DNA of 64,000 nucleotides from Mesobacillus sp. AQ2 (GTDB lineage Bacteria > Bacillota > Bacilli > Bacillales > Cytobacillaceae): contig NZ_CP126080.1 of NCBI RefSeq assembly GCF_030122805.1, positions 377,001 through 441,000 of the forward strand. The letters are read 5' to 3'. Position numbers and translations under genes: made by a program. How positions within the stretch are numbered: position 1 is the stretch's first letter; the number at the start of each line of letters is the position of its first letter. This document shows, piece after piece, positions 12,416 to 27,709 of this stretch. A model generated the notes under the pieces. That model saw only the letters and a list, made by a program, of their open reading frames with translations, made no database searches and had not been told where the DNA came from.

Positions 12416-12424
12416 CATAATATA
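12416..12424 (+). promoter_or_regulatory. Sigma-K-like -10 element before the collagen-like gene
   Basis: CATAATATA fits the sigma-K -10 consensus CATANNNTA and lies 36 bases before the start codon. I do not see a matching AC at the -35 distance, so the call rests on the -10 and on the spore-surface nature of the gene. Confidence 0.35.
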
Positions 12425-12459
12425 TTGTGTTCTCAATAAAAAATAAAGGAGTGAGATTA

Positions 12460-15129
12460 TTGGGAGATAAAGAGAATCACAAGAAGGATTTTTCAGCAAA
12501 TATCAACAGCTGCTCAAACAGAAACGTAGAACCAGACGTGAATTTTGATGCCAGGATAAGCAAGGTACCTGTAGTCTTAGCTGAGATTGAAGTTAGTACC
12601 TCGGTTACAGCTGATATTACCTTTCCGGAGGATGTCTTGGAAATCAAGGATATCAAAAAACGAGTAGTCCTTGTTCAATGTCGTCTTCTGGTGCCAACGA
12701 ATCAGCTATTCATAAAAGGATATGTGGAAAAAAATATTAGATACGCTGCAGCACCAACGGGATGGAAGCGGAAGTCTATTGATTCAAATATCCGATCACT
12801 TACCGTGAAAGTTCCTTTTGAGTGTTCAACTCCAATTAGGGAGTTCATTACTCGTCCAGTAAACGTCCAATTCAACCAGCGCAGTGAATTTGATTTTTTG
12901 ATTAAGAAACCATTACCGGAAGGGTTTCCTGAAAAAGATGAACTGCTAACGAGCGACCTTTCACAATTTCACCAAGATAGTACTCAGCACTATAATGAAC
13001 TTCCATACTGTGACTTGGTGTCCAGCCGTATTATAGAATGGGATGAAGCTACAGACAGGGTAACGTTACAAGAGGGAGCAATATTCGAAGGAACCTTTAG
13101 GAACATCGTTGAAAAGATGATCGTCAGGTTTACAATCAAACTGCTTCAGAAACAACAAGTCCCAATTGGCGGAGGTGCGACGGGGCCAACCGGGCCAACG
13201 GGACCAACCGGACCAACAGGACCGACTGGAGAAACAGGTGCAACCGGAGCAACCGGACCGACGGGACCAACAGGACCAACAGGACCAACGGGACCAACGG
13301 GGCCAACGGGACCAACAGGACCAACAGGACCGACTGGGCCAACCGGGCCAACGGGACCAACAGGACCAACAGGACCGACCGGACCTACTGGACCAACAGG
13401 ACCGACGGGACCAACAGGACCAACAGGACCAACGGGACCAACAGGGCCGACCGGACCAACAGGACCAACGGGGCCAACAGGACCGACCGGACCAACAGGA
13501 CCGACGGGACCAACAGGACCAACGGGGCCAACGGGACCAACAGGACCAACAGGACCAACAGGACCAACAGGACCAACGGGACCAACGGGGCCAACGGGAC
13601 CGACTGGACCGACTGGACCAACAGGACCAACGGGACCAACAGGACCAACGGGACCAACAGGACCAACAGGACCAACGGGACCAACGGGACCGACTGGGCC
13701 AACCGGGCCAACGGGACCAACAGGACCAACAGGACCAACAGGACCAACAGGACCAACAGGACCAACGGGACCAACAGGACCAACAGGACCGACGGGACCA
13801 ACGGGGCCAACGGGACCAACAGGGCCAACCGGGCCGACAGGGCCAACAGGACCGACGGGACCGACAGGACCGACAGGACCAACAGGACCAACAGGACCAA
13901 CAGGACCAACAGGACCAACAGGACCAACAGGGCCAACAGGGCCAACAGGGCCGACCGGACCAACAGGACCAACGGGGCCAACTGGACCGACCGGACCGAC
14001 CGGACCAACAGGACCGACGGGACCAACAGGACCAACGGGACCAACAGGACCAACGGGGCCAACTGGACCAACAGGGCCAACCGGGCCGACAGGACCAACA
14101 GGACCAACAGGACCAACAGGGCCAACAGGACCGACGGGACCGACAGGACCGACAGGACCAACAGGACCAACAGGACCAACAGGACCAACAGGGCCAACAG
14201 GGCTGACGGGACCAACAGGGCCAACAGGGCAGACGGGACCAACAGGGCCGACCGGACCAACAGGACCAACGGGGCCAACTGGACCGACCGGACCAACAGG
14301 ACCAACAGGGCCAACCGGGCCGACCGGACCAACAGGACCAACAGGGCCAACTGGACCGACGGGACCGACGGGACCGACAGGACCGACAGGACCAACAGGA
14401 CCAACAGGACCAACAGGGCCAACAGGGCCGACGGGACCAACAGGGCCAACAGGGTCGACGGGACCAACAGGGCCGACCGGACCAACAGGACCAACGGGGC
14501 CAACTGGACCGACCGGACCGACAGGACCAACAGGGCCAACCGGGCCGACAGGACCAACAGGACCAACAGGGCCAACTGGACCGACGGGACCGACAGGAGT
14601 AACCGGACCAACGGGGCCAATGCCTGCAACTGAATGTGATTGCTGTGTTGAGCGAATGAAAGAATACCTGGAATCATTAGAAGGCGCCACGAACATTAGT
14701 ATTGCAACGACGATACAAAGCGCCCAGGGTGGGTTCACTAATGCAACCATAAATAGGGTTGTTGGTGATTATGTGATTATCAATAATGGGGATGCAGCAA
14801 TACCGATTTGTAAGATTGTCGGGCTAGGAGGAAGCGCTACTTCTGCATTATTAACAACACCACTACCATCATCTGAAGATGAAGAAGGTGGCTTCTGTGA
14901 GTGCTGTGAACAAGCAACACGGGAAATTCTGCAATTGATCAAGGATAGGCCAGCGACTGCAGACTTCTTAACCGAGGGTTCTGGCGACTTTGGTAACTTA
15001 CAGAATTTCACCATTCTAGAAATTCAAGAAGGATTAGTGAAGATCCGAAGTGGAAATGATGTCAGGGTACTCTCAACTTGCCACATAGCAGCTCTGTCAG
15101 ATATAAATCCAAACCTGATTGTCCCTTAA
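12460..15129 (+). CDS. Collagen-like spore-surface protein with SPOCS-like N-terminal domain
   Basis: The 889-residue protein has three parts. Residues 1-238 resemble the SPOCS (DUF3794) domain of CsxC-type spore coat proteins: [54 protein letters not shown]. Residues about 239-720 are about 160 uninterrupted Gly-X-Thr triplets, nearly all GPT, with rare GET, GAT, GLT, GQT, GST and GVT. GPT threonines are the known glycan acceptors in BclA-type exosporium collagens. The last 170 residues contain two related units, each opening with CDCC/CECC and closing with ICKIVGL/TCHIAAL. There is no LPxTG or Sec signal, as expected for mother-cell spore proteins. TTG at 12460 is chosen for its AAAGGAGTGAG site. 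The flanking glycosyltransferase genes suggest it is their acceptor. Confidence 0.85.
13176..14620 (+). repeat. Nine-base tandem repeat tract encoding the collagen-like region
   Basis: About 160 copies of GGNCCNACN. Synonymous bases vary but no frameshift occurs. Longer units recur: the sequence starting GGGCCGACCGGACCAACAGG is found at 13948, 14245 and 14470, which are 33 and 25 nine-base units apart. This indicates block duplications, so length is likely to differ between strains and could be mis-assembled. Confidence 0.95.
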
Positions 15130-15144
15130 CACCATAACGAGATG

Positions 15145-15185
15145 AGGCTGTCCTAAGAGTGAATCTCTTAGGAACAGCCTTTTTC
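15145..15185 (+). terminator. Intrinsic terminator after the collagen-like gene
   Basis: AGGCTGTCCTAAGAG (15145-15159) pairs with CTCTTAGGAACAGCCT (15165-15180), followed by TTTTC. It separates the collagen-like gene from the glycosyltransferase genes. Confidence 0.85.
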
Positions 15186-15223
15186 ATTCTTTTACAAATT
15201 CAACAATTGATTGGTTCTTAAAT

Positions 15224-26510: not shown

Positions 26511-26533
26511 CCGGCAATTAAATGGCAAGAGGA

Positions 26534-26566
26534 AAGAGGAAATCTTCATGATTCCCTCTTATTTTT
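26534..26566. terminator. Bidirectional terminator between convergent genes
   Basis: AAGAGGAAATC (26534-26544) and GATTCCCTCTT (26550-26560) form an 11-bp stem with one mismatch, followed by ATTTTTT. It lies between the dehydrogenase gene and the converging glycosyltransferase gene. Confidence 0.7.
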
Positions 26567-27653
26567 TGCCGCTATTTTTCATGAAATCATTAAAAAATTT
26601 CTCATTGAACAAGACCTGCTTGTCATCTGGCCGGTATTTTTTGGCGTTCTGATTGTGTTCAATCGATTTTTCTACATTGCCTAGTTCCCAATGGCATACG
26701 CATAGCTGAAGATGCGGATACCATGTGGAATAAGCCTGGTTCTGGAATCCGGCTGTGTCCTTATTCATCTGTATCGCGGTAGTATACCAGTAGATAGCTG
26801 TTTGATAATCCTTTTTGGCCTTGAAAATGTCGCCAATCCGGCAGCACGGTTCAGGCCGGGGTGCATCGTATGATAGTGACTTCAGCAAAGCTTCCATTTC
26901 TTCGTCTTTTTCTCCTAGATGGACATGGCAATCAGCCAGATTCAAACACGCTCTTATGTTGTCCCCCACCCAGCCTTTTTTGCCTCCAAGGAACTCATGA
27001 TAATAAATGATCGCTTTTTCATATTGCCTGTGATCACGCAGCTCATTGGCATAATAATATAAGTCCCTTGGAGTGAAGTCCTCTCCTCTTTTAATCCGCT
27101 TCTCATAAATTCTTAAATTCCTGTCAGATGAATGGCCGGTCGATTGTTTTTCATTCTTTTTATGCTCAACTGATATATCAGAAGATAAAATATTGCCGCT
27201 CACATCAAGATATTCATGGACGGGTCCGATCCATTTGAAGTTCTTGCTCCTCTTCACCAGGCGGTTCCTTCTGTAATGGAAAGTCGGGTTCCCAAATTCA
27301 TCTCTGAGGATGACATAGATCATGGAGACACCATCAACATCCTTTTTCAGGGAGGTTTTCAGCTTTTTGAACTTTTGCTGGTCAGCCGGCAGCAGAATAT
27401 CGTCGGCATCGAGCCAAAGGATATAGTCCATCGTTGCGTTGCTGAAGGCAAAATTGCGGGCTGCGGAAAAGTCGTCAATCCACTCGAAATCGAGTACTTT
27501 ATCACTGTACTGCCTGGCTATTTCCTTTGTCCGATCAGTCGACCCGGTATCCACAATGACGATTTCATCACAGATATCCTGTACACTCCTGAGACAGTTC
27601 TCCAATACTTCTTCTTCATTTTTAACAATCATGCAGAGACTGATGGTGGGCAT
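26559..27653 (-). CDS. GT2-family glycosyltransferase with TPR tail
   Basis: The 364-residue protein begins TISLCMIVKNEEEVLENCL and has VDTGSTDRTKEIA and DYILWLDADDILL (metal-binding DxD). This is the SunS/YqcM-like GT2 subgroup that often modifies proteins. Residues about 200-355 form TPR repeats (YEKAIIYYHEFLGG, YQTAIYWYTTAIQMN, VEKSIEHNQNAKKYRPDD). ATG at 27653 follows AGGAGGG. An imperfect sigma-K-like element (AC, 15 bases, CATAAAATG; 27684-27709 on this strand) lies upstream. Confidence 0.85.
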   Translation of the reverse strand: MPTISLCMIVKNEEEVLENCLRSVQDICDEIVIVDTGSTDRTKEIARQYSDKVLDFEWIDDFSAARNFAFSNATMDYILWLDADDILLPADQQKFKKLKTSLKKDVDGVSMIYVILRDEFGNPTFHYRRNRLVKRSKNFKWIGPVHEYLDVSGNILSSDISVEHKKNEKQSTGHSSDRNLRIYEKRIKRGEDFTPRDLYYYANELRDHRQYEKAIIYYHEFLGGKKGWVGDNIRACLNLADCHVHLGEKDEEMEALLKSLSYDAPRPEPCCRIGDIFKAKKDYQTAIYWYTTAIQMNKDTAGFQNQAYSTWYPHLQLCVCHWELGNVEKSIEHNQNAKKYRPDDKQVLFNEKFFNDFMKNSGKK

Positions 27654-27683
27654 TGATTTCCCTCCTGTAAAAGATTTTCTTCA

Positions 27684-27709
27684 CATTTTATGTAAAAGGA
27701 TAACGATGT
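27684..27709 (-). promoter_or_regulatory. Imperfect sigma-K-like promoter
   Basis: On the minus strand AC, 15 bases and CATAAAATG precede the TPR glycosyltransferase gene. One -10 base differs from CATANNNTA and the spacer is one short, so the call is tentative. Confidence 0.3.

Follow-up and report, generated by a model that had tools for sequence, protein, structure and literature searches.

A candidate O-glycosylation island for a spore collagen at a variable locus of Mesobacillus, with a predicted diamino uronic acid sugar

Overview

A window of 64,000 nucleotides from the 4.80-Mb genome of Mesobacillus sp. AQ2 (positions 377001-441000; genome G000, contig C1) holds, at window positions 12416-27709, an island in which the gene of a GPT-repeat collagen is followed by genes for glycosyltransferases and sugar enzymes. 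We consider it quite probable, from the sequence, that this is a BclA-like O-glycosylation island which makes a glycan containing an N-acylated 2,3-diamino uronic acid, and that it lies at a locus whose gene sets are exchanged in a serotype-like manner. The argument starts from what was computed directly, namely the gene content, the membership of the collagen in the CsxC family, the conserved promoter-like boxes, the diversity of the gene sets and the conflict between gene trees. In so far as the system is ordinary, it would be a spore collagen like BclA accompanied by dedicated sugar genes. What would set it apart is that, in several genera, sugar sets are exchanged in a serotype-like way while anchor and starter stay conserved, and that a diamino uronic acid is predicted. 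A full-text search, judged by titles and abstract openings and with subscription journals mostly outside it, found no publication on this locus or on Mesobacillus spore glycans, and nothing pointing to an acidic diamino uronic sugar on spores. Acidic sugars on spores are already known in the form of legionaminic acid, reported from the B. subtilis crust (PMC10502511).

The collagen protein

The collagen gene (12457-15129, forward strand) encodes 890 amino acids when counted from the TTG at 12457, the open reading frame being listed from a GTG at 12427. The window and six other, related loci have a conserved upstream stretch that extends as far as a CCCATAAKATATKGTG block and a ribosome site GGAG, and because of this conserved block and site the true start is probably the TTG, with the GTG lying upstream of it. 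The N-terminal domain is a member of the CsxC family: the profile NF045794 (cut-off 135) gave 243 bits on the protein, residues 46-247 aligning with profile positions 1-203 of 203, and 247.7 bits on the genome, where the anchor domain covers 12562-13167 on the forward strand. The initial annotation had described the protein as a SPOCS-like, GPT-rich collagen. Its GPT-rich character holds, and the likeness to SPOCS finds no support in the sequence, as Pfam returned no SPOCS match for the N-terminal domain and only DUF7852 at E<=5, whereas CsxC was matched far above its cut-off.

The shaft (13183-14622, forward strand) consists of 160 G-X-Y triplets, 152 of them GPT and 159 with threonine at Y, i.e., it is GPT-rich as a BclA-type shaft should be. 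Pfam Collagen matched the protein with 232 bits, so that the very long GPT collagen first noted here is borne out, and this is the sole Pfam Collagen match in the genome at E<=0.001. The DNA of the shaft forms a repeat array (13186-14620) with a period of 9 and 159.4 copies of the 9-bp unit. Taking 2.8 Å per residue, a figure from a study reporting that the width of the nap changes with collagen length (PMC11952670), the predicted shaft would be about 134 nm long. It ends in a head (14605-15126, forward strand) with two Cys-containing modules (CDCC and CECC), for which no Pfam match, to a C1q/TNF-like head or otherwise, was found at E<=5. The antisense of the GPT repeat is itself open from 13146 to 14750 as a GPV collagen-like frame, which is a trap for annotation and most likely a by-product of the repeat.

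Sugar genes and predicted chemistry

Six glycosyltransferases, two of them CgeB-like, had been proposed for the island, and all six were confirmed. On the forward strand, the collagen gene is followed by those of a GT4 enzyme (15273-17003 from the putative start ATG 15273; open reading frame from 15237, with a CATAATGTA box at 15233), a GT-D fold enzyme (17099-17986; NF040628 167 bits, cut-off 75), a GT2 enzyme with TPR identified by Pfam (18033-19148) and a first CgeB-type enzyme (19218-20189), whereas the second CgeB-type enzyme (24015-25034) is encoded on the reverse strand. Both CgeB-type proteins matched PF13524 (65.6 and 60.9 bits, gathering score 25), which we take to be the family holding CgeB and which is broader than CgeB. 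The sixth enzyme, referred to below as the right-hand GT2-TPR (26559-27653, reverse strand), recurs in each of the five cassette types of the genus (in type IV as a fusion), which no other glycosyltransferase was found to do; its nearest curated family is that of the SunS peptide S-glycosyltransferases (TIGR04195), of which it is not a member (74.3 bits, cut-off 350). The GalU that had been named (20239-21126, reverse strand) likewise stood the test, with 396.9 bits against a cut-off of 326.8, and is one of three copies in the genome.

The four enzymes said to resemble WbpA, WbpB, WbpD and WbpE are present as classes: a UDP-HexNAc 6-dehydrogenase (WbpA class; 25233-26510, forward strand, open reading frame from 25170), a Gfo/Idh oxidoreductase (WbpB class; 22352-23341, reverse strand, putative start 23341, open reading frame from 23389), a hexapeptide acyltransferase (WbpD class; 23389-23889, reverse strand, 90.7 bits with the hexapeptide family) and a DegT sugar aminotransferase (WbpE class; 21258-22355, reverse strand). 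They contain what are presumably catalytic motifs, i.e., GGHC in the dehydrogenase, EKP in Gfo/Idh and K185 within FYPGK in DegT. In the published pathway, WbpA, B, E and D lead from UDP-GlcNAc to UDP-GlcNAc3NAcA (PMC10622841). The island most likely makes an N-acylated 2,3-diamino uronic acid glycan, a prediction from sequence, which reveals neither the acyl group nor the order of the reactions. The dehydrogenase matched NDP-sugDHase with 337 bits (cut-off 190), which assigns it at the level of the enzyme class, and scored higher with the UDP-ManNAc dehydrogenase profiles (282 and 210 bits) than with those for UDP-Glc (139 and 122 bits), all of these equivalogs remaining below cut-off. The best curated family for Gfo/Idh was UDP-GlcNAc 3-dehydrogenase (195 bits, below the cut-off of 450). 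DegT matched WbpE chains with 293-296 bits over nearly the full length, and QdtB (409 bits) and other members scored higher, so this assignment, too, is one of class. The hexapeptide enzyme matched 3mqg, an acetyltransferase of lipopolysaccharide biosynthesis, with 80 bits and a WxcM-like protein with 104 bits.

A rhamnose-anthrose chemistry was also considered and rejected: RmlB had four matches in the genome, none over the cut-off (best 161 of 365 bits), which argues against such a glycan. Together with the presence of all four WbpA/B/D/E classes, this supports by computation the earlier suggestion of a chemistry unlike that of B. anthracis.

A locus with exchangeable gene sets

The variable locus is flanked on the left by Nif3 (8985-9746) and on the right by Dus (27938-28921), both on the forward strand, and contains in the window an extracytoplasmic function (ECF) sigma factor with a partner gene (10026-12015), and then the island. 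It was followed through 21 genomes of the genus, taken to be Mesobacillus by its relatives, Dus being found in 19 of them and Nif3 in 13. Dus is too conserved to serve as background (92-94% identity to the window within the genus and 93% in the Neobacillus-type group g18). In annotated stretches fetched from these genomes, five gene sets (types I-V) stand behind a conserved collagen anchor, whose CsxC domain is 87-100% identical to that of the window at nine further loci. Type I, as in the window, occurs in four genomes (G000, G075, G071, G081). Type II (G079, G084) has the dehydrogenase, a different hexapeptide enzyme, DegT, Gfo and a GalE-like enzyme, type III (G077, G089) a GalE-like enzyme and a second GT4, type IV (G074) a GT2 fused to a pyruvyltransferase, and type V (G073) two pyruvyltransferases and CgeB-type enzymes. 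The DegT, Gfo and hexapeptide trio exists in two versions, those of types I and II being only 45%, 26% and 32% identical, respectively; the dehydrogenase accompanies the trio in both types and was not seen in types III-V. At E<=1e-40, the type I Gfo was found in 5/193 genomes of the family, the four of the genus and G152.

The right-hand GT2-TPR occurs in 11 of the 21 genomes, all of them among the at least 12 with a CsxC-collagen frame, and in the twelfth (G083) this frame is cut by the end of the contig. In G081 and G084 the collagen and sugar genes lie on separate contigs, and in G085 the CsxC-collagen lies elsewhere. G082, G076 and G085 have a GH149 phosphorylase at the locus (identified by a test in L080 and by clustering elsewhere), to which G082 and G076 add an MkoA-like helicase, and the gap between Nif3 and Dus is only about 0.9, 1.4 and 2.8 kb in G072, G088 and G087. 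G070, G078, G080, G083 and G086 could not be typed.

Several further observations concern the locus and its surroundings. In L079, L080 and L081 a GH149 beta-1,3-glucan phosphorylase replaces the collagen, and the helicase of L079 and L080 is a protein of 1,264 amino acids similar to the defence protein MkoA. The ECF sigma factor and its partner of 481 amino acids were also found in G075 and G085, and part of the partner in G071; the stretches of the other genus-mates showed neither at this place. The collagen array of G079 (L069) has several reading-frame changes, due to sequencing error or decay. Downstream of Dus, tandem DUF6143 genes (30749-31853) are accompanied by an AC-N17-CATATTATA site at 31887-31914; the pair recurs adjoining Dus in L068, L074 and L084, and from this recurrence and the site DUF6143 may be a spore family.

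The comparison was extended to other genera. In the Neobacillus-type genomes G152 and G154 (g18), a GPT collagen lies at a common, different locus; its N-terminus is not that of the window's collagen, and its head is of the same type (45-46%). Directly beside this collagen island is an Enas endospore-appendage gene, tested by Pfam in G154 (L105:4335-4823), with counterparts at the same place in G152 (L104:2984-3472, near-identical by sequence) and G151 (L106, 91% identical). The island of G152 is of type I, save for GalU, and the window's GT-D shares 84% identity with the GT-D there, against 60-62% with those of genus-mates of types II and III. The island of G154 (L076) is a mosaic, with DegT, Gfo, hexapeptide enzyme and dehydrogenase of type II and with GT-D, GT2, GT4 and the CgeB pair of the type I kind. 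The trees of GT-D, GT2 and GT4 join sets across genera. Mesobacillus type I joined G152 and G154 for GT-D, GT2 and GT4; type II joined G419 in four genes (support 0.987-1.000), these three among them (0.995-1.000); type III joined the Neobacillus genome G151 for GT2 (1.000) and GT4 (0.977), the grouping for GT-D being weak (0.385); and type IV joined G321 (Anaerobacillus) for GT2 (0.990) and GT4 (0.954), and fell for GT-D into a weakly supported group with G321 and Pontibacillus (0.552). The tree of the right-hand GT2-TPR mostly follows the genus, with Mesobacillus types I, II, III and V apart from Neobacillus and the rest (0.965) and Neobacillus together (0.998), the exception being type IV, which groups with G321 and Pontibacillus.

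Conserved flanks, alternative gene sets and conflicting trees, the hallmarks of an O-antigen-like locus, were thus all found. Most likely, the anchor and the starter have mostly been kept by descent and the remainder is one of at least five exchangeable sets, in which case the locus would work like an O-antigen locus for spores. That relatives carry other sets there suggests a chemical difference between the sugar coats that spores of sister species bear. A wider proposal, on which we are evenly divided, is that the Bacillaceae have spore-hair "glycotypes", in which sugar sets that pass between genera, here one for an N-acylated diamino uronic acid and not for rhamnose-anthrose, are combined with a collagen anchor and a Thr-repeat starter that are both conserved; this would be an antigenic and physical diversification like that of Gram-negative cells by O-antigens, probably driven by phages, grazers or surfaces.

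Neighbours of the glycosyltransferases

The genes beside relatives of the glycosyltransferases bear on the question of the acceptor. A search with GT4 through 397 genomes of the order gave a match in 13, ten of them outside the family. Six of these ten (G419, G399, G259, G321, G216, G442) have a collagen gene at a distance of 0.1-5.4 kb, a short one in G259 and G216; three (G534, G431, G418) have flagellin and FlgK as neighbours, and the last lies on a cut contig of 7.8 kb with neither. Collagen and flagellin both being surface proteins, these neighbours argue for direct protein glycosylation. The GT2-TPR gene was not seen in the G419 stretch, which ends near there. Among the flagellin loci, L101, L102 and L103 have GT4 relatives beside the flagellin genes, with GT2-TPR relatives in L101 and L102. 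Perhaps flagellin and spore collagen are served by a shared kit of glycosyltransferases.

Elsewhere in the family, outside the genus and besides G152 and G154, 37 copies of GT2-TPR were collected in 36 stretches. Under a first, narrower definition of collagen (runs rich in P, A or E at X), 14/36 stretches had a collagen and none had a flagellin. The definition was then widened to G-X-T runs, GPX runs and Ser/Thr-rich frames of at least 300 amino acids, a choice made after the neighbours of 15 stretches had been inspected. By this measure, 22 of the 37 copies lie within 1.5 kb of such a frame, compared with 445 of 1800 random anchors (25%, a rate inflated by very long collagen genes); the 22 include L128, a low-complexity frame at a contig end. 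In L109, L115 and L116, giant G-X-T proteins (1,634-1,986 amino acids, longest runs 446-541 triplets) adjoin the GT2-TPR genes. In L132-L136, short G-X-T repeat proteins (GLT/GIT in those read) lie 62 bp from the GT2-TPR gene, the spacing being equal in all five.

Promoter-like sequences

Sigma-K-like motifs had been reported before several genes of the island. In the window this holds for the collagen, GT4 and dehydrogenase genes, where CATANNNTA cores lie at 12416-12424, 15233-15241 and 25150-25158; the CgeB-type, GalU, GT-D, both GT2-TPR, hexapeptide, Gfo and DegT genes have none. We take the CATANNNTA core to be a -10 element of the sigma-K/sigma-E (mother-cell) type, and AC-N15-17-CATANNNTA to be its strict form. 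The box of the collagen gene, CATAATATA (12416-12424, forward strand), is present in 7/7 loci, and the strict pattern fails there in all seven (0/7) because the -35 position reads CC, not AC. The promoter-like site of the dehydrogenase gene, AC-N16-CATAAAATA (25132-25158, forward strand), follows the strict pattern in 7/7 loci.

Counted from 150 nt upstream to 60 nt downstream of the starts of 103 island genes in 11 loci, the core was found in sense at 28 genes and in antisense at 11, compared with 7.0 ± 2.5 in shuffles (maximum 14 in 500); since the 11 loci are related, these counts are not independent events. Gene by gene, the box occurs at collagen in 7/7, dehydrogenase in 7/7, GT4 in 7/10, GalE-like in 2/4, hexapeptide in 2/7 and right-hand GT2-TPR in 1/11, and those of GT4 and the dehydrogenase recur though the surrounding upstream regions align poorly between gene sets. 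The strict pattern gave 15/103 in sense and 6 in antisense, against 0.9 in shuffles (maximum 5 of 300) and 3/65 at other genes. As controls, other genes of the same loci carry the core in 4/65, and non-collagen CsxC genes, counted over a somewhat different upstream stretch, in 28/56 in sense versus 0 in antisense. A promoter layout of a 5-nt and a 10-nt element, 14-16 nt apart, has been described (PMC517825).

Weighing the explanations

On the reading that we prefer, the mother cell would, late in sporulation, make a CsxC-anchored collagen hair that is O-glycosylated in the cytosol on the threonines of its GPT repeats. The right-hand GT2-TPR would be the likely starter, recognising the repeat, and GT4, GT-D, the second GT2 and the two CgeB-type enzymes would extend the chain. 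The dehydrogenase, Gfo/Idh, DegT and hexapeptide enzyme would convert UDP-GlcNAc to the donor of a 2-acetamido-3-acylamino uronic acid, either UDP-GlcNAc3NAcA or a closely related compound, while the extra GalU would supply UDP-glucose. The time of expression, the acceptor and the attachment to it, the order of transfer, the identity of the sugar and the location on the spore are what we infer here. That the island serves an exosporium or crust glycan of different chemistry, as first suggested, is supported computationally by the CsxC domain, the conserved boxes, the Enas neighbour in G154, GT4 and GT2-TPR genes beside collagen or Thr-rich frames, and the lack of an RmlB over the cut-off.

The sugar is the point on which another explanation deserves the most attention. 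The island might glycosylate a spore collagen as proposed and yet make a special sugar that is not uronic, with Gfo, DegT and the hexapeptide enzyme leading to UDP-GlcNAc3NAc or another acylated 3-amino sugar and the dehydrogenase making a separate uronic acid. We lean against this and still count it a real possibility: the best curated family of Gfo, a UDP-GlcNAc 3-dehydrogenase, the higher score of DegT with QdtB than with WbpE and the unreadable acyl group would all suit it. Against it speaks the dehydrogenase, which was seen alongside the trio in types I and II but in none of types III-V. It is unlikely, in our judgement, that the sugar genes make a spore polysaccharide or decorate some other spore protein, as proposed for the B. 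subtilis crust, the collagen gene merely adjoining them within a shared regulon. Nine glycosyltransferases, CgeB being one, are considered to act on the crust glycans (PMC10502511), and the collagen and sugar genes of the island have separate boxes; yet glycosyltransferases accompany collagen genes with differing N-termini, at differing places, in other genera, distant GT4 relatives adjoin another surface protein, flagellin, and the GT2-TPR family is often beside Thr-rich frames.

A vegetative capsule, teichuronic acid or flagellin glycan has very little probability. UDP-sugar dehydrogenases and GalU also serve capsule and teichuronic acid-type polymers, and the GT4 relatives at flagellin loci (three of ten genomes outside the family) could be read in this way. 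Against it, a scan of the island genes showed no flippase, polymerase, phosphoglycosyltransferase or flagellin, and a crude hydropathy test found no clear membrane protein (largest 19-residue mean 1.75, in GT-D; others <=1.59). As no gene for export or polymerisation was seen, a glycan assembled in the cytosol of the mother cell is a better fit than a vegetative capsule, and the sporulation-type boxes, the CsxC anchor and the Enas neighbour of the sister island point to sporulation.

Several results weigh against glycosylation of the collagen with a diamino uronic acid. Concerning the sugar, the NCBIfam equivalog matches of all four enzymes are below cut-off, the match of Gfo/Idh to characterised WlbA is weak (3q2k, 38 bits), no C-2 epimerase of the WbpI class was seen among the island genes scanned, and GalU, present in the type I islands of the genus, is missing from that of G152. 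As to the acceptor, a Thr-rich frame is missing within 1.5 kb of 15/37 GT2-TPR copies, and the definition of such frames was widened post hoc, after GLT repeats had been seen. Regarding regulation, the 11 antisense CATANNNTA cores are somewhat above the shuffle mean of 7.0, and none of the examined loci has the box at CgeB, DegT, GT-D, the GT2-TPR of 18033, GalU or Gfo. The hydropathy peak of GT-D (1.75), in what is a crude test, comes close to the limit customarily set for membrane helices.

Comparison with known systems

If the proposed mechanism is correct, glycosylation of spore collagen is not confined to the B. cereus group but occurs in other genera of the order too, and a specific, testable spore sugar is predicted. 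The GT2-TPR family would be a candidate for the enzymes that begin glycans on G-X-T repeats, and could help in producing glycosylated collagens. Spore surface chemistry may then pass between genera as gene sets, which would help to explain variable adhesion and recognition of spores among sister species.

One close counterpart is BclA of the exosporium nap in the B. cereus group, which has a rhamnose-anthrose glycan and is likewise a collagen-like protein of the spore surface; its collagen-like repeats in B. anthracis are reported to bear a tetrasaccharide in many copies, linked through GalNAc (PMC6947953). The protein described here differs in its CsxC N-terminus, its Cys-containing head, the uronate-type sugar enzymes and the lack of an RmlB over the cut-off. 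Its anchor belongs to the same NCBIfam family as CsxC of C. sporogenes, a protein of 273 amino acids with 14 Cys found in exosporium preparations; the account of CsxC drawn on here mentions no collagen part (PMC4942563), whereas the Mesobacillus protein has a shaft and a head. We know of no collagen target for the crust glycan genes of B. subtilis. These genes (cgeB, yfn, ytc, sps) resemble the island in their CgeB-type and other glycosyltransferases, in late sporulation and in an acidic sugar, and differ in their chemistry of rhamnose and legionaminic acid (PMC10502511). The WbpA/B/E/D pathway of the P. aeruginosa and B. pertussis O-antigens comprises the same four enzyme classes (PMC10622841), but the island has no WbpI-class epimerase that was seen, its Gfo is only distantly like WlbA, and the trio exists in two unlike versions within the genus. 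The O-antigen and capsule serotype loci likewise combine conserved flanks and core with exchangeable sugar genes and conflicting trees, with the difference that the acceptor here would be a spore collagen glycosylated in the mother-cell cytosol and not a lipid-linked polymer.

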